A stretch of 32,308 nucleotides of DNA from SAR324 cluster bacterium (GTDB lineage Bacteria; SAR324; NAC60-12): NCBI GenBank assembly GCA_029245725.1, contig JAQWOT010000146.1, positions 1-32,308 of the forward strand, in the 5' to 3' direction. The notes below the pieces were generated by a model. The model was not told where the DNA came from and searched no databases. It saw only the letters and a program-made list of their open reading frames with translations. Numbering within the stretch: position 1 is the stretch's first letter; each line of letters begins with the position of its first letter. Made by a program: the position numbers and the translations under genes. Below are positions 7,827-24,527 of the stretch, piece after piece.

Positions 7827-8546
7827 TCAGGGAGCAGAGGTTTTGTAAGCGACATGAATTGTCGAGGCACCAAATACAAAATCGTAGTAGTCAGCCTGTT
7901 GAAAACCGACTTCAAGTAGTTTCCGCTTCAGGGTTTCTTGATCAGGATACTTCAAAGAAGACTGAGGAAGATAGGTGAACATCTCTTGCTCAGGCATTAG
8001 CCATTCACCAATTTTTGGGACCACCTTGAAGAAGTAGAAATGGCTCAAAACATCTATCAATGGCAGCCGTACTTTTCCCACATCCAGACTAACCAAGACC
8101 CCCCCTGGTTGCAAGATACGCCTTATCTCCAAGAGTCCCTTCGTGAGATCATCAAGGTTACGCAGTCCATAACCAATAGTCACCGCAGCAAACCAGTCAT
8201 CCGGGAAAGGTAGGCGAAGGGCATCCCCTTGGATCCATTGAACCGAATCAACCTTTGTCCGATCTGCAGCGATCCCCAACATGGATGCAGCAAAATCAAC
8301 TCCTGTCACTTCTGCATCAGGATGCTGCTTGATGACAGCCCTTGCAATGTCTCCAGTTCCGCAACAAAGGTCCAGGCAACGTTCTCCTTCCCGAAGACCC
8401 GTCTGACGCGCAACAAAACGCTTCCAATAACGGTGCATCCCAAAGGTAATGAGGTCATTGAACCGGTCATACTTCAACGCAATCTCGTTGAATTTGCGGC
8501 TAACGTATTGGGCTTTATAATCAGTCGATGGGAGTTGGTAGGTCAA
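7827..8546 (-). CDS. ubiE: quinone C-methyltransferase, UbiE/MenG family
   Basis: This is a SAM-dependent methyltransferase of ubiquinone and/or menaquinone synthesis, 239 residues. It has the family N-terminus (VSRKFNEIALKYDRFND), SAM motif I LDLCCGTGD (58-66), the family stretch TIGYGLRNLDD, and the post-motif ILQPGGVLVSLDVGK. The sequence cannot decide between demethylmenaquinone and the ubiquinone precursor as substrate; no other quinone gene is nearby. The start overlaps the stop of the upstream fusion gene by 4 bases (ATGA), indicating coupling, and mrp follows 11 bases later. Confidence 0.93.
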   Translation of the reverse strand: MTYQLPSTDYKAQYVSRKFNEIALKYDRFNDLITFGMHRYWKRFVARQTGLREGERCLDLCCGTGDIARAVIKQHPDAEVTGVDFAASMLGIAADRTKVDSVQWIQGDALRLPFPDDWFAAVTIGYGLRNLDDLTKGLLEIRRILQPGGVLVSLDVGKVRLPLIDVLSHFYFFKVVPKIGEWLMPEQEMFTYLPQSSLKYPDQETLKRKLLEVGFQQADYYDFVFGASTIHVAYKTSAP

Positions 8547-9898
8547 TGGCTTACTGAGGTAGGATACCGATCAAGTTGTCTAGAAAGCAATTCAAGAGCA
8601 GAGATCGCAAAACGAATCTGGTGTTCCTGTTTGGTGAAGAAGGGATTTTCCTTAACTACCTCATGAATTTGCTCATATGGCTGCTCCGTCATTTCTGACC
8701 TTTTGATAAGCACCAGGTGGCAAGCCCCATTCTTATTGCTGCGCAGGGTTCCATCAGGCGGACCAGCCATTCCGTTTTCAGCGAGTACCAAGTCTGCTTC
8801 AGTATTTATAATTGCAGCCAAAGCCATCTCCTTTGTCAATTCCTCAGAAAGGCTTGATTCGCGATGCCCCAGAAATCTCCCAATCAATTGCTCCTTGATA
8901 GAATTGGCATAAGCGACCTGAGAGCCAAGAACGAATTTGGACGAACCAGGTAGCCCAATCAAGGACCCTGCTATCCGTCCTCCAGTGCTTGTTTCCAGAA
9001 AATAGATTTTCGGAGAATTCTTTCTCTCAAAAAGCTGACGAGAGACCTTTCGACTGATTTCTAGGAGATCTCTCTCTAGTTCCTGAATCCTGACTTCCCA
9101 CTCACTGGCTTCAGCAATTTTATTTGAAAGTCTACTCCCAAGATGCTCATCAAGATGCTTAATTGCCTTGTCAGGCAGATAAGCGGGCAGTTGCTGTCTG
9201 CAGGATACAGCTCGACGAATTATCGTTGAGGAAAGATTTAGAAAGCTTTTCAGACCTTTTGGTAAAAGAACCTGGTCCAGAATTTTCTGTTTCAGGGATA
9301 GACCCTCACCAAAACGATCAGCAATCCGCTCACCCGGCCGAGATACTACCAGCCATTCCGTCAAGTTTGACATCTCTTTCAAGTCTGCTTCTGAAAAGAT
9401 TTTGGGATCCTGCATTCTGTTGATCAAGTCACTACCGACCAAAACCTGAATCCGCTTACTTTTGGACTCGCTATTAGACTCGATAGCTGTCCAGATATTT
9501 TTGATATTATCCAACAGTCTAACCTGGCCTTCCTTCTTAAATTCACTGATTGAAATGAATAACCCTACTTGGCGAAGACGAAGAATTTCTTCAACTTGAT
9601 CAACAATGAAATTGAGTCGATTTCCAGCACTTTGATGTAAACTCGCTAGCAAGTCTTGCATCAGTTGGAGGCGGATATCTTTGGGGAGGGTTACTGATCT
9701 TTTGAAAGGATCTGGATGATGACCATTAGAGAGGAGGTAAACGACCTTCGATAATTCAGGTCGTTGCCTTAAGGCCAGTTCTGCCAATACAAGGTGGTGA
9801 TAGCCTGCTGGATTTCCAGTGATGGGAACAAATAGGGTGTTTTGGAAATCAGCATTCTCCGGGCAAGGAGATTCAATAATCCTGGGGTTCACTTGCAA
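8543..9898 (-). CDS. fusion of NadD-like adenylyltransferase and CinA/PncC-like domains
   Basis: The product is a 451-residue two-domain protein. Residues about 22-253 are a nucleotidyltransferase fold: GNPAGYHH (28-35) stands where NadD has its N-P-x-H-x-G-H motif, and SSTIIR (223-228) matches the S-S-T-x-I-R signature. A helical linker (about 262-295) leads to a CinA C-terminal domain (297-445): ETSTGG (302-307) corresponds to ESCTGG of NMN deamidases, with LPGSS, Tyr330, Lys335 and NGMAGPPDG (375-383). In known families these would deamidate NMN to NaMN and adenylate NaMN to NaAD. Deviations are Gly for the first motif His, Thr304 for the catalytic Ser, and Asn for Thr before GMAGP. Activity is therefore not assured. 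It starts 4 bases after the LeuA-like gene and overlaps ubiE by 4 bases. Confidence 0.75.
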   Translation of the reverse strand: MQVNPRIIESPCPENADFQNTLFVPITGNPAGYHHLVLAELALRQRPELSKVVYLLSNGHHPDPFKRSVTLPKDIRLQLMQDLLASLHQSAGNRLNFIVDQVEEILRLRQVGLFISISEFKKEGQVRLLDNIKNIWTAIESNSESKSKRIQVLVGSDLINRMQDPKIFSEADLKEMSNLTEWLVVSRPGERIADRFGEGLSLKQKILDQVLLPKGLKSFLNLSSTIIRRAVSCRQQLPAYLPDKAIKHLDEHLGSRLSNKIAEASEWEVRIQELERDLLEISRKVSRQLFERKNSPKIYFLETSTGGRIAGSLIGLPGSSKFVLGSQVAYANSIKEQLIGRFLGHRESSLSEELTKEMALAAIINTEADLVLAENGMAGPPDGTLRSNKNGACHLVLIKRSEMTEQPYEQIHEVVKENPFFTKQEHQIRFAISALELLSRQLDRYPTSVSH

Positions 9899-9902
9899 AA
9901 AA

Positions 9903-11456
9903 TTAGGCTGCTGGTTCAGCCTCTACTTGATTCTGTAGCATCAGCAAATTTAGCATTTTCAAGGTAGCATTAACTGCTGCCATCACTTGGTCACCATCCA
10001 CACCAATCGTTTGGAGTCGTCTCTCACCCATCTTCCAGGTGATCACAGCCTCGGTCAACGCATCAGTTTTTCCACTCCTGGGAATCCGGATTTCATAGTC
10101 CACCAAGTCAGGACAAATGATTTGACGGCGTTTGAGGATCTTCTTGACGGCATTCATAAAAGCATCATACCCACCAATGCCTGAGCCTGCTTCAGTGTAT
10201 ACCTTTTCGTCCCAACTCAAGCAGACAGAAGCGGTGGACTTAAGATTCAAGCCACTCTGGATGCTGCAACCCTCTAAACGCAATCGTTGATTAACGTTAT
10301 CATCCAAGACATCAGTAACAATGAAGGGCAAATCCGCTGGAGTCAGATTTTTCTTTGAGTCCCCCAGTTGGACGATTCTTTCGAGTACTTTTCGCAGATT
10401 TTTCTCAGAAAGCTGTAAGCCCAGAATCTCCAGATTTTTTACGAGAGACGCTTTGCCACTCATTTTTCCCAGTGCATAACTTCGAATTCTGCCAAAACGC
10501 TCTGGCTGAATTGGATTGTGATAGAGACCACCTTTCCTGTCCCCATCAGCGTGAATTCCACTTGTCTGGGTAAAAACATCAGTACCAATGACAGGGGAAT
10601 TCGTAGCCAATCGCTTACCTGAGAAGGTCTCGATCATCTCGCTCACTGGCACTAAGCTTGTTTCGTCAATGCTGAGGTGAACCCCTAACTTATCACGAAG
10701 GACTACTGAAATTTCAGCAAGGGAAACATTTCCGGCTCTTTCACCCAGGCAGTTCATTGTGCAATGCAGGTTACGAATTCCGGCTTTGACTGCATATAGG
10801 CAGTTTGCGGTGGCCAAGCCATAGTCGTTGTGAGGATGAAAATCGATTTTAGCCCATGGGAATCGTGAGGTCATGTCTTTCAAGCTATCAAAGACTTCCT
10901 CTGGAGATAGCACTCCGAGAGTGTCTGGCAACATAATGTGCTTAATGTCTAACCCCTCCAAGTGCCCCATTAGGTTGTAAACATACTCTGGCTCATCTCG
11001 ATAACCATTTGACCAATCCTCAAGATATATATTTACCTGCAAGCCTCTAATTTCGGCGTATTCGACCGTTAGACGTATGTCTGCAGCGTGTTCTCTAAGT
11101 GTTTTCCGAAGCTGATTCTTGCAGTGATTTTCACTTCCCTTGGTTAGCAAATTCATTACTCTGGCACCAGAGTCGAAAATCCAGTCGACACTTCTCTTGT
11201 GATCACAAAAACCGAGAACTTCTACACGATCCAGAAACCCTTGGTCACTTGCCCAATCTGCTATGTTTTGAACAGCTTCTTGTTCTCCCTGTGAAATTCT
11301 CGCTGAAGCAATTTCCAGTCTATCAACCCCAACTCTCTGAAGCAGAGCTTTGGCGATATTCATCTTCTCAGAAGGTGTAAATGAGACTCCTTGAGTCTGC
11401 TCACCATCACGAAGAGTTGTGTCCATCAAAGAAATATGTTCACCAGCGAGATCCAT
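9903..11456 (-). CDS. 2-isopropylmalate / citramalate synthase family enzyme with regulatory domain
   Basis: The enzyme condenses acetyl-CoA with a 2-oxoacid in branched-chain amino acid synthesis. It is 517 residues long. The TIM-barrel motifs are MDTTLRDGEQTQG (11-23), HPHNDYG (207-213, metal ligands), NCLGERAGN (235-243) and SGIHADG (299-305). A C-terminal LeuA allosteric/dimerisation domain spans about 380-510. The VMNLLTKGS stretch (100-108) and overall length resemble a clade annotated either as isopropylmalate or (R)-citramalate synthase, so the oxoacid substrate is left open. The start has a clear ribosome site (AGAAGGA, 7 bases upstream). Downstream genes follow within 4 bases, so a promoter in the 83-base gap upstream could serve the whole run. 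Confidence 0.88.
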   Translation of the reverse strand: MDLAGEHISLMDTTLRDGEQTQGVSFTPSEKMNIAKALLQRVGVDRLEIASARISQGEQEAVQNIADWASDQGFLDRVEVLGFCDHKRSVDWIFDSGARVMNLLTKGSENHCKNQLRKTLREHAADIRLTVEYAEIRGLQVNIYLEDWSNGYRDEPEYVYNLMGHLEGLDIKHIMLPDTLGVLSPEEVFDSLKDMTSRFPWAKIDFHPHNDYGLATANCLYAVKAGIRNLHCTMNCLGERAGNVSLAEISVVLRDKLGVHLSIDETSLVPVSEMIETFSGKRLATNSPVIGTDVFTQTSGIHADGDRKGGLYHNPIQPERFGRIRSYALGKMSGKASLVKNLEILGLQLSEKNLRKVLERIVQLGDSKKNLTPADLPFIVTDVLDDNVNQRLRLEGCSIQSGLNLKSTASVCLSWDEKVYTEAGSGIGGYDAFMNAVKKILKRRQIICPDLVDYEIRIPRSGKTDALTEAVITWKMGERRLQTIGVDGDQVMAAVNATLKMLNLLMLQNQVEAEPAA

Positions 11457-20946: not shown

Positions 20947-21714
20947 ATGAACTCTTCATTGTTTTCACTTGAAAACCAAATTGTGTTGATCACTGGATCA
21001 AGCCGAGGACTTGGGTGGTCCATGGCCAAGGCAGTTGCGGAAGCTGGAGCCACCGTTCTGCTGCATGGCCGAGATGAAAACTTACTCAAAGAACGTCAGC
21101 AGCATCTTCAGGAGCTTGGCCAGAATGCCGAATACTATATTTTTGATGTCACCAATGACGAGGAAGTGCATGCCGCTTTTGGAAAAATTCGGGAACAGCA
21201 AGGTCAATTGGATGGCTTGATCAACAATGCTGGCATTCAACATCGCCGTCCACTCACTGAGTTTGAATTAGCAGATTTTGATCGAGTGATGGACACGAAC
21301 CTTCGGGCGAGTTGGTTACTTTCTCGGGAAGCCGTGCGCTTGATGCAAGGTCAAGAGTCTGGATCTATTGTCAATATTGCTTCGATCATGGGTCCTCAGG
21401 CTCGTAAGACAATCTCTGCCTACACCACCAGCAAAGCTGGAGTGGTCGGCTTGACCAAGGCCCTAGCTGTTGAATTGGGACCAGAAGGCATTCGCTGTAA
21501 CGGCATCGCTCCAGGCTACTTTGCCACAGAGCTGGCTACCGATCTTTTCAAAGATCCCAATTTCACCGCCTTTGTTTCTGGACGAACCCCGATGCAGCGC
21601 TGGGGTAATCCCGATGAGCTGGGTGGAGCCGCTGTCTTTCTGCTCTCCAAGGCAGCTTCTTATGTAAATGGGAACGTGATCTTTGTCGATGGAGGACTGG
21701 CTTGCCAAGTCTAA
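20947..21714 (+). CDS. short-chain dehydrogenase/reductase, gluconate 5-dehydrogenase-like
   Basis: This is a classical SDR of 255 residues. Motifs are TGSSRGLG (16-23, cofactor loop), NNAG (93-96), catalytic Ser146, Tyr159 and Lys163 (YTTSK) and a C-terminal VDGG. Arg20 and Arg42 near the cofactor loop would fit NADP(H) use. The overall pattern, including the FELADFDRVMDTNL region and the RTPMQRWG stretch, resembles gluconate 5-dehydrogenase/IdnO and related polyol SDRs. It lies 45 bases after the aldehyde dehydrogenase and 37 bases before larB in one direction. Confidence 0.9.
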   Translation: MNSSLFSLENQIVLITGSSRGLGWSMAKAVAEAGATVLLHGRDENLLKERQQHLQELGQNAEYYIFDVTNDEEVHAAFGKIREQQGQLDGLINNAGIQHRRPLTEFELADFDRVMDTNLRASWLLSREAVRLMQGQESGSIVNIASIMGPQARKTISAYTTSKAGVVGLTKALAVELGPEGIRCNGIAPGYFATELATDLFKDPNFTAFVSGRTPMQRWGNPDELGGAAVFLLSKAASYVNGNVIFVDGGLACQV

Positions 21715-21751
21715 GAGATCTTGCAGAAGAGAACTTTTCGAAGAGTTCAGA

Positions 21752-22504
21752 ATGAATTCTTCACAACTACTCCAACTGCTGGAATATGTTGCAGAGGGAA
21801 GCCAATCTCCAGACTCTGCCCTGAAAAAACTAAGAACCTTTCAGGTCGAGAATTTGGGGTTTGCAGAAGTGGACCATCATAGACAACTCCGCAATGGTTT
21901 TTCTGAAGTTGTCTATTGTGATGGCAAAACCCCTGAACAAGTTGCAGAGATCTTTACGGCACTGAATCGTGAAACACCAAACGCCTCGCTTCTCGGAACC
22001 AGGGCTAGCGCTGCTCATTACAGAGCGGTAAAAAAAAACCTCGGTGGCTGCGGCTATTGTGAAGCCTCCAAGTGTCTTTATCTCGACCAAACTGAGGAGG
22101 ATAAACTCAAGGGTGATGTCTTGTTGGTCAGTGCTGGAACTACGGATCGTCCGGTCTTGTTAGAAGCTGCTCACACGGCCAGACTCACTGGAAGCCGAAT
22201 CGAGGTGATGGAAGACTTGGGGGTTGCGGGACTACAGCGGATTGTGTCTAGACACGAACGTTTGATAAAGGCTCGGGTGATTGTGGTTGCTGCAGGGATG
22301 GAAGCTGCTCTGCCAACAGTGGTAGCAGGACTGGTTTCCTGCCCAGTAATCGGAATTCCCACCTCAGTTGGCTATGGTACCTCTTTTAGCGGTGTCACGG
22401 CTTTGTTGGGCATGCTCAACAGCTGTGCTTCTAACCTTTGCTGCGTAAATATTGATGCTGGCTTCCGAGCAGGATATCTAGCTAGTTTGATCAACAGGAA
22501 CTGA
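21752..22504 (+). CDS. larB: nickel-pincer cofactor biosynthesis protein LarB
   Basis: LarB carboxylates the pyridinium ring of nicotinic acid adenine dinucleotide and cleaves off AMP, the first step to the nickel-pincer cofactor. It is 250 residues from the chosen ATG; an in-frame start at 21683 would overlap the SDR gene and add non-conserved residues. Residues about 122-250 are the PurE/AIRC-like domain (DVLLVSAGTTDRPVLLEA, EDLGVAG, IPTSVGYGTSFSG, VNIDAGFRAG). Cys225 in LNSCAS fits the catalytic cysteine of the family. The stop overlaps the larC start (TGATG). The substrate NaAD is an intermediate of NAD synthesis. Confidence 0.93.
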   Translation: MNSSQLLQLLEYVAEGSQSPDSALKKLRTFQVENLGFAEVDHHRQLRNGFSEVVYCDGKTPEQVAEIFTALNRETPNASLLGTRASAAHYRAVKKNLGGCGYCEASKCLYLDQTEEDKLKGDVLLVSAGTTDRPVLLEAAHTARLTGSRIEVMEDLGVAGLQRIVSRHERLIKARVIVVAAGMEAALPTVVAGLVSCPVIGIPTSVGYGTSFSGVTALLGMLNSCASNLCCVNIDAGFRAGYLASLINRN

Positions 22505-23682
22505 TGCATCTTCATCTTCACTCCACTTCAGGGATCAGCGGGGATATGCTTGTCGGGGGCTTCTTAGGCTTGGGATTGCCCTTAGATTTCCTCCAGGAAC
22601 AACTGGTAAAGTTGAATCTCAAAGGATGGGAAATTTCTCAGAAAAATGTTGAAAAACTTGGGGTTTCAGCCATTCAGTTTGAGGTAGCGTACGAGGAACA
22701 AAACCATCATCGACACCTCACAGACATTCTTGAAATTCTTGGCAAGTCGGAGCTTTCCCCAAAAGCCAAGTCCATCGTAGAAGATTTATTCCAATCATTG
22801 GGTCGTGCCGAATCATCAGTCCATCAAGTACCCATCGAGGAGGTTCACTTTCACGAAGTTGGCGCTGTCGATACCATCATTGACATTGTTTCTATTGCGG
22901 TCGCCTTGGAGTATTTTGAAATTGAGAGCGTTTCCTCGAACACTATTTTGGAAGGAGTGGGGAAAGTTAGATTTTCTCATGGAGAATGCGATCTCCCCGT
23001 TCCGGCTGTTAGAGAACTGTTAGGAGATATTCCCCTGCAAAGAATTCCTGTTTCTTCTGAGCTTGTTACTCCGACCGGTGCAGTTTTTCTCCAAAGATTT
23101 GTAGAATGTTTTTCAGATCTCTCTCCACTACTGCAACCCAGAAAAGGAGTTGGCTGTGGAACCAAGGATCTACCTCATCCCAATGTGTTGGAATTACAGC
23201 TAAGTGAGCAAAAGCTAATAGCTGAGGAGATCATAAGATTAGAAGCAAACGTTGATGACCTCAGTCCTCAACTATTAGCTTCCTGTATCGAAAAAGTCCT
23301 AACTGCTGGAGCATTGGACGGTTGGGCTAGCCCAGTTTTTGGTAAGAAGGGTCGGATTGGACAGCAATTGGTGCTGCTTTGCTTGGAGAAAGATCGAGAT
23401 TCACTGCTAGAGCTTCTTTTAAAGGAATCAGGTAGTTTTGGAGTTCGTGTCCAGCCTGTAAAAAGACTCAAGTTGGATTCAAGGCATGAAAACTTCTCTA
23501 CAGAATGGGGAAATATTTCAATGAGATCAGGGTTTCTTGGTGAACAGTGCTGGCAATGGAAACCGGAGCATCGTGATATTATCAATGCCGCAGATCGGAC
23601 TGGTCAACCTCCAGTATTGATTGAGGCTCAGGTTCGGCAAGCTTGGGGGGCAAAGTTGTTGTCATCAGGGGAAACAGAATGA
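22504..23682 (+). CDS. larC: nickel insertase LarC (single full-length frame)
   Basis: LarC is a CTP-dependent cyclometallase that inserts nickel into the pincer ligand. It is 392 residues long and begins MHLHLH, with SGISGDM (9-15) and the EEVHFHEVGAVDTIIDIV stretch (about 114-131), rich in potential metal-binding His/Glu. The C-terminal half (about 240-385) is the LarC2 region, with ANVDDLSP and a GWASPVFGKKGR motif. In Lactobacillus plantarum the gene is read through a frameshift (larC1/larC2); here both halves are in one uninterrupted frame. It overlaps larB by one base and larE by four. Confidence 0.93.
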   Translation: MHLHLHSTSGISGDMLVGGFLGLGLPLDFLQEQLVKLNLKGWEISQKNVEKLGVSAIQFEVAYEEQNHHRHLTDILEILGKSELSPKAKSIVEDLFQSLGRAESSVHQVPIEEVHFHEVGAVDTIIDIVSIAVALEYFEIESVSSNTILEGVGKVRFSHGECDLPVPAVRELLGDIPLQRIPVSSELVTPTGAVFLQRFVECFSDLSPLLQPRKGVGCGTKDLPHPNVLELQLSEQKLIAEEIIRLEANVDDLSPQLLASCIEKVLTAGALDGWASPVFGKKGRIGQQLVLLCLEKDRDSLLELLLKESGSFGVRVQPVKRLKLDSRHENFSTEWGNISMRSGFLGEQCWQWKPEHRDIINAADRTGQPPVLIEAQVRQAWGAKLLSSGETE

Positions 23683-24527
23683 AAGTATTTGGGGATTTAA
23701 AGCGACTCAATACAGTCTTGAAGGGTACCAGTCCTCGAGTGGTGGCTTGTAGCGGGGGAGTTGATAGTATGTTATTAGCGACTCTGGCTCATCGTCAAAA
23801 ACCTGAGGAGACCATTGTTGTGCATGCTGTTGGACCCGCAGTGCCTTCCGCAGCCTCCACACGAGTCAAACGTTGGGCAAATCAAGAAAAATGGCAACTT
23901 CAACTGGTCAATGCAGGTGAATTCGATGATCCCGAATACTTGGCAAATCCAGTGAACCGTTGCTTTCACTGCAAGAAAAATCTTTACCGCACACTGAGAG
24001 ATATTCGAGAGCAGTTAGATTCATCAAGCGTTTTACTAAGTGGTACCAATCTCGATGATCTCGATGATTTTCGACCCGGCTTAGGCGCTGCAGAACAGGC
24101 AGGAGTCAGGCATCCATTCGTGGAAGCATCCATCACAAAACCTCAACTTCGTGAAATCGCCCGTCAATCAGCTTTGCCATTTGCAGATTTACCTGCTGCC
24201 CCGTGCCTCGCGAGTCGGCTCTACACTGGAACAAGAGTACAGGCAGACTTGCTTCAACTGATTGATCAAACTGAAGAATGGATTCGGGAACAAACTGGTC
24301 TAGCTGTCGTTCGTTGTCGCGTCCACCAACAGGAAATGCTTGTGGAAGTTGAGAATCCGAGCCTAGTGGAGAAGCATCATAAGCTTGTCCAGGACTTGAG
24401 AGCCAGAGTTCTAGAAGCTTCAGACCACATCAATTCCGTAGTGATTGATCCAAAACCTTATCAGCCAGGTCGAGCTTTTGTGAGAGGGAATCTAGTAGAA
24501 GACGCACGTTCAACAATAATCCAATGA
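23679..24527 (+). CDS. larE: sulfur transferase LarE of the nickel-pincer pathway
   Basis: LarE is a PP-loop ATPase that converts the two carboxylates of the pincer precursor to thiocarboxylates. It is 282 residues from the ATG at 23679, which overlaps the larC stop (ATGA) and follows an AGGGGA ribosome site; the frame is open further upstream, from 23643. The PP-loop is SGGVDS (25-30). Cys176 in PCLASR matches the sulfur-donor cysteine of Lactobacillus LarE. Two further cysteines, Cys95 and Cys98 (RCFHCKK), give the three-cysteine set associated with [4Fe-4S]-dependent, catalytic LarE homologues. The aldo/keto reductase follows 10 bases later. Confidence 0.93.

Follow-up and report, generated by a model that had tools for sequence, protein, structure and literature searches.

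A single open reading frame of 451 amino acids, at 8543-9898 on the reverse strand of the window (the whole stretch of 32,308 nucleotides that we analysed), encodes a protein in which an NMNAT/NadD-like nucleotidyltransferase domain is followed by a CinA/PncC-like domain. The joining of these two folds in one protein is real, and it is a new combination of two known families that is order-specific within our sample. We predict that the fusion works as an adenylyltransferase that handles NMN and that its CinA domain has been remodelled, a reading to which we give about an even chance of being right; with it we infer the substrate, the direction of the reaction, the binding of NMN and any regulation. 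The first-pass annotation, in which the two halves were taken to catalyse consecutive steps of NAD recycling, is as a whole partly supported.

The frame starts with TTG at 9898, with an alternative GTG two codons on at 9892, and no obvious ribosome-binding site is seen before either start (window 9892-9905). All of its features lie on the reverse strand. The N-terminal adenylyltransferase-like domain (9143-9844, residues about 19-252) is placed by TIGR00482, a PDB profile and Foldseek, and the C-terminal CinA/PncC-like domain (8567-9010, residues about 297-444) by PF02464 and 2a9s. Between them the AlphaFold model has a linker, of low confidence at residues 255-261, and a long helix at residues 266-291 (together 9011-9142). 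The motifs first quoted for the two halves were all found in the frame: GNPAGYHH, aligned with the (H/T)xGH ATP-binding motif (9794-9817, residues 28-35), SSTIIR as the second ATP-binding motif (9215-9232, residues 223-228), ETSTGG of block P-I (8978-8995, residues 302-307), PGSS, also in the C-half, and NGMAGP (residues 375-380), which is part of ENGMAGP at residues 374-380 (8759-8779).

With regard to family assignment, Pfam recognises CinA alone (PF02464, residues 283-403, 63.4 bits against a cut-off of 23.5), and PF00994 gave no match to a MocF/COG1058 domain at E 0.1. The NCBIfam NadD model TIGR00482 matches residues 29-252 with E=1.2e-8 and 35.2 bits, below its curated cut-off of 112, and a relative (L007) reaches 73.7 bits, also below that cut-off. 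The NCBIfam PncC/CinA models match over residues about 275-406 with E values as low as 5e-14. Their scores all fall short of the curated cut-offs, TIGR00199 (PncC_domain) for example giving 45.5 bits against 68.9. The AlphaFold model, built from 28 relatives, has a pLDDT of 86.1 and a pTM of 0.85. Foldseek searches of the PDB matched its C-half to Agrobacterium tumefaciens CinA (2a9s, E 5.5e-10, TMt 0.82) and its N-half to human NMNAT3 (1nup, E 2.2e-7) and Bacillus subtilis NadD (1kaq, TMt 0.83), and the profile of the N-half is closer to eukaryotic NMNATs (human NMNAT1 1kqn, E 1.8e-11) than to bacterial NadD (best 1.7e-7). The proposal that both domains are present is thus borne out at the level of the fold by AlphaFold with Foldseek, NCBIfam and Pfam, as is the likeness in structure of the two halves to NadD and PncC. 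We do not class the fusion as a NadD or a PncC, since testing showed one defining motif of each family to be altered; this weakens its claim to membership of those families, though not the claim that it acts on a substrate of that kind. Among viral structures Foldseek gave the best match to A0A481YR20 (E 2.6e-9), a "competence-damaged protein" of 318 amino acids from Marseillevirus LCMAC101.

We searched 383 genomes, one per species, with an 18-sequence profile of the fusion. Within the window's order (two families) 39 of 41 genomes have it, full length in 35 and partial in the rest; the two genomes without it are 54% and 89% complete. It turned up neither in the 11 genomes from other families of the phylum (sister order) nor in the 331 from outside the phylum. 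The scores split cleanly, with the fusion at 167 bits or more and other matches at 88 bits or less, the latter over the CinA part. On plasmids no match covered 80% of the query, those seen being to the CinA part, and the whole fusion was not found in viral contigs. A wide distribution in bacteria finds no support in the 331 genomes outside the phylum and the plasmid and viral collections, and two genes, or an artefact of sequencing or assembly, are ruled out by the 39 genomes with the fusion and the dN/dS values, which are about 0.1-0.36 in both halves. The family nearly always has a single open frame, and some 50 alignment columns are invariant across it. An in-frame TGA in one relative (L019, G020:C88:8708-9949) may be a frameshift, an error or a sign of a pseudogene.

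For the N-half we aligned 28 relatives with eight NadD proteins. The place of (H/T)xGH reads GxHH or GxNH in all 28, so that Gly has taken the place of the first His/Thr and the second His is retained. None of the 28 departs from the Asp of GxD, the Lys of the PPHK loop or SSTxIR, and the places of Escherichia coli NadD His19, Arg46 and Asp109 are occupied by His, Lys and Asp in every one. Mutation has placed these three residues in the active site of E. coli NadD, where their change nearly abolishes activity (0.62% left for His19 and 0.038% for Asp109; PMC1249556). The NadD Trp is absent from the N-half of the family, which has invariant residues of its own in HPDPxK and GxDLxxRM.

For the C-half the alignment set the 28 relatives against E. 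coli PncC and eight canonical CinA proteins, and we use E. coli numbering. The place of the nucleophile Ser29 has Thr in 23, Ser in four and Ala in one, the window's protein having the Thr that lies within ETSTGG. The place of the catalytic Lys61 has Lys in 13 and Gln in 15, and the window's genus keeps the Lys (Lys335, 8894-8896); Ser and Lys occur together in, for example, relatives from G006 and G033. Tyr56 and Arg142 bind NMN in PncC: the first is Tyr in all 28, and the second, a phosphate-binding residue, is Arg in 16 and Lys in 12, including the window's protein, in which K423-Q-E-H-Q is found at 8618-8632. The S/T103 place is Asn in the window's genus, within ENGMAGP. T-G is preceded by a Glu and followed by a Met, and the Arg142 place is followed by EHQ; these residues are invariant in the family and specific to it. 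PncC depends on the Ser and the Lys in both A. tumefaciens and E. coli, S29A/S31A and K61Q/K63A mutants being inactive (PMC8231969, PMC5384747). The E. coli K61Q protein, though inactive, binds NMN in the micromolar range without significant binding of NaMN, and Y56 and R142 are required for NMN binding (PMC8231969). The low dN/dS extends to pairs without the Lys, which indicates constraint on the CinA half rather than simple decay.

The first-pass annotation had looked to a survey of genomes for the same domain order and for a separate nadD. The domain order recurred, in the 39 of 41 genomes above, and the second point gave a divided answer. A separate canonical NadD (115 bits, over the cut-off) is encoded in the window's genome, which is 99% complete, together with NadE and a strong PncB (TIGR01513, 546 bits); neither NadC nor a CinA domain other than that of the fusion was found in it. 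However, in the genera g3, g7 and g8, which keep the fusion, a separate NadD was found in none of 20 genomes, and NadC, NAPRTase (PncB) and NadE in none of the nine tested, NadE being present in each of the six further genomes of the order that were tested. The absence of PncB is less certain than that of NadE, because PF04095 detects even the window's PncB weakly. In nine genomes (G007, G011, G012, G013, G016, G017, G018, G022 and G025), which are 86-92% complete, we detected none of NadD, NadE, NadC, NAPRTase and PnuC. As to a source of NMN in the NadE-less genomes, we found no PnuC, no NAMPT/NAPRTase and no clear match to a NadR-type kinase. In G025, which is in five contigs, the remaining nucleotidyltransferases are CoaD, RfaE2/HldE and RibF, and the fusion is thus the only NMNAT candidate found there.

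The state of Lys61 goes with that of nadD. The nadD state is known for 26 sequences: of the 15 from genomes without NadD, 14 have Gln, and of the 11 from genomes with NadD, one has it (the exceptions are G009 and G012). This correlation carries no statistical weight, because the tree needs only about one loss of nadD and two changes of the Lys, so that the coincidence amounts in essence to a single event. In the NadE-less genera NaMN and NaAD would be dead ends, since there is no NadE in the nine genomes tested by which they could reach NAD. A deamidase coupled to a NadD would be futile in such cells, and an NMN adenylyltransferase would give NAD directly.

We suggest that the N-half most likely moves AMP from ATP onto NMN, or perhaps NaMN, giving NAD directly. 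The C-half would be a CinA domain descended from an NMN deamidase, with its active site remodelled. In the lineages without NadD and NadE it is mostly of the K61Q type, and there it most likely binds NMN without deamidating it and may act as a regulatory or substrate-holding domain. Binding of NMN by the natural Gln-bearing fusions is predicted by analogy with the E. coli K61Q protein; the analogy is inexact, because Ser29 too is altered in them, being Thr in g7; g3 retains the Ser. A fuller version for g3, g7 and g8, which we offer tentatively as rather improbable, is that the fusion is the sole NAD-forming enzyme and that K61Q has turned its CinA half into an NMN-specific sensor or substrate holder that controls or feeds the NMNAT. 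The protein may be bifunctional in the genus of the window, where the Lys is retained and both NadD and NadE are present; deamidation there is possible, but probably weak given a Thr nucleophile and Asn at the S/T103 place. Against our explanation as a whole, every member has lost the first position of the (H/T)xxH characteristic of NMNATs, and the NadD Trp is gone; in addition the search of the NadE-less genomes for a source of NMN found none, and the gene neighbourhood is not NAD-related.

On either side of the fusion, on the same strand, are a citramalate/2-isopropylmalate synthase-like gene upstream (9903-11456, from NCBIfam), four bases from the start of the fusion, and a UbiE/MenG methyltransferase gene downstream (7827-8546), which overlaps the fusion frame by four bases (8543-8546). 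The synthase-like gene adjoins the fusion or is one gene off in four of the eight other loci compared; the neighbourhood gave no clue to the function. The top score of the synthase-like gene is to the Leptospira CimA model, at 670 bits below its cut-off of 950.

The genes larB, larC and larE, for NPN cofactor synthesis, lie side by side at 21683-24527, about 12 kb from the fusion and on the opposite strand; larA was not recognised among the window genes scanned. LarC of some species is made via a programmed frameshift. The LarC of the window (22504-23682) is in a single continuous frame with both LarC1 and LarC2 matches. The substrate of LarB is NaAD (PMC11796402), and on this ground the first-pass annotation had linked the fusion to LarB. 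LarB is indeed encoded in the window (21683-22504), but the link is not upheld: the lar genes are not next to the fusion, and with its own canonical NadD, NadE and PncB the genome needs no fusion to provide NaAD for LarB.

It was originally proposed that the fusion is a bifunctional recycling enzyme, in which the CinA half converts NMN to NaMN and the N-half converts NaMN to NaAD, for use by NadE or LarB. Both folds are present, the fusion has the only CinA domain of the window's genome, Lys61 and Tyr56 are retained in the window's genus, where NadE is also present, Thr could chemically serve as the nucleophile, and LarB is in the window. However, with residues whose mutation inactivates PncC replaced in 24 of 28 (Ser29) and 15 of 28 (Lys61) relatives, with the fusion retained in nine NadE-less genomes that also lack NadD, NadC and PncB, and with a NadD already present in the window's genome, we now regard this coupling as unlikely. 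It is very improbable that the gene is decaying and has no active function: changes are indeed seen at several catalytic residues of both parent families, but the occurrence in 39 of 41 genomes, the nearly unbroken frames, the low dN/dS and the invariant columns all speak against decay.

The altered residues can also be read as a change of substrate, with the N-half adenylating some other small molecule and the CinA half serving as another amidohydrolase or as a structural dimerisation domain, outside NAD metabolism. GxHH or GxNH in place of (H/T)xGH in all members is in keeping with this, and HPDPxK, GxDLxxRM, the Glu and Met around T-G and EHQ suggest remodelled sites; the neighbours are a citramalate-synthase-like gene and UbiE, and inactive CinA homologues are known, such as YdeJ and YfaY of E. 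coli (PMC3855486). We nevertheless think it rather unlikely, as the nearest relatives of the N-half are NMNATs and those of the C-half CinA, which point independently to pyridine mononucleotides, and no other NMNAT candidate was found in the NadD-less genera.

If the NMN-handling adenylyltransferase is the right reading, there is a bacterial lineage whose sole recognised route to NAD is a fusion protein, and an enzyme would have been turned in nature into a ligand-binding domain by the same change as in an engineered NMN biosensor. Residues and gene content together would then predict which relatives can or cannot deamidate NMN. The domain order would also be one not described in the CinA literature searched: our search for an NMNAT-CinA architecture, in which coverage of subscription journals was thin, found no description of it. 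Plant proteins of the Arabidopsis At3g27610 type have CinA-like and nucleotidyltransferase regions in one chain, in the reverse order. CinA is occasionally fused to other domains, and such cases were set aside in PMC3855486.

Compared with NadD and NMNAT proteins (1kaq, human NMNAT1 1kqn and NMNAT3 1nup), the fusion shares the Rossmann-like nucleotidyltransferase fold, the second His of motif 1, the GxD Asp, the Lys/Arg of the PPHK loop and SSTxIR, and differs in the Gly for the first His/Thr, in having neither the GG of motif 1 nor the NadD Trp, in scoring below the TIGR00482 cut-off and in carrying a CinA domain. With single-domain PncC/CinA (E. coli PncC/YgaD, 2a9s) it has in common the CinA fold, Tyr56, ExxTGG GG and the AGP loop, but the family mostly has Thr at Ser29, has Gln at Lys61 in about half, Asn at 103 (window's genus) and Arg or Lys at 142, and has the new invariant E, M and EHQ. 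The E. coli PncC K61Q mutant has the very substitution that occurs naturally in 15 of the 28 relatives; unlike the fusion it is engineered and single-domain, with Ser29 intact. NadM-Nudix (Synechocystis slr0787), as cited in PMC3680494, is likewise an NMNAT fused to a second NAD-recycling enzyme; it is of another NMNAT subfamily and has another partner domain. The two-domain COG1058(MocF)-CinA proteins (Thermus thermophilus CinA 4ct8 and Shewanella oneidensis PncC) resemble the fusion in having a C-terminal CinA domain together with a second nucleotide-active domain, but there the partner is an ADP-ribose pyrophosphatase and not an adenylyltransferase (PMC4246079, PMC3680494).
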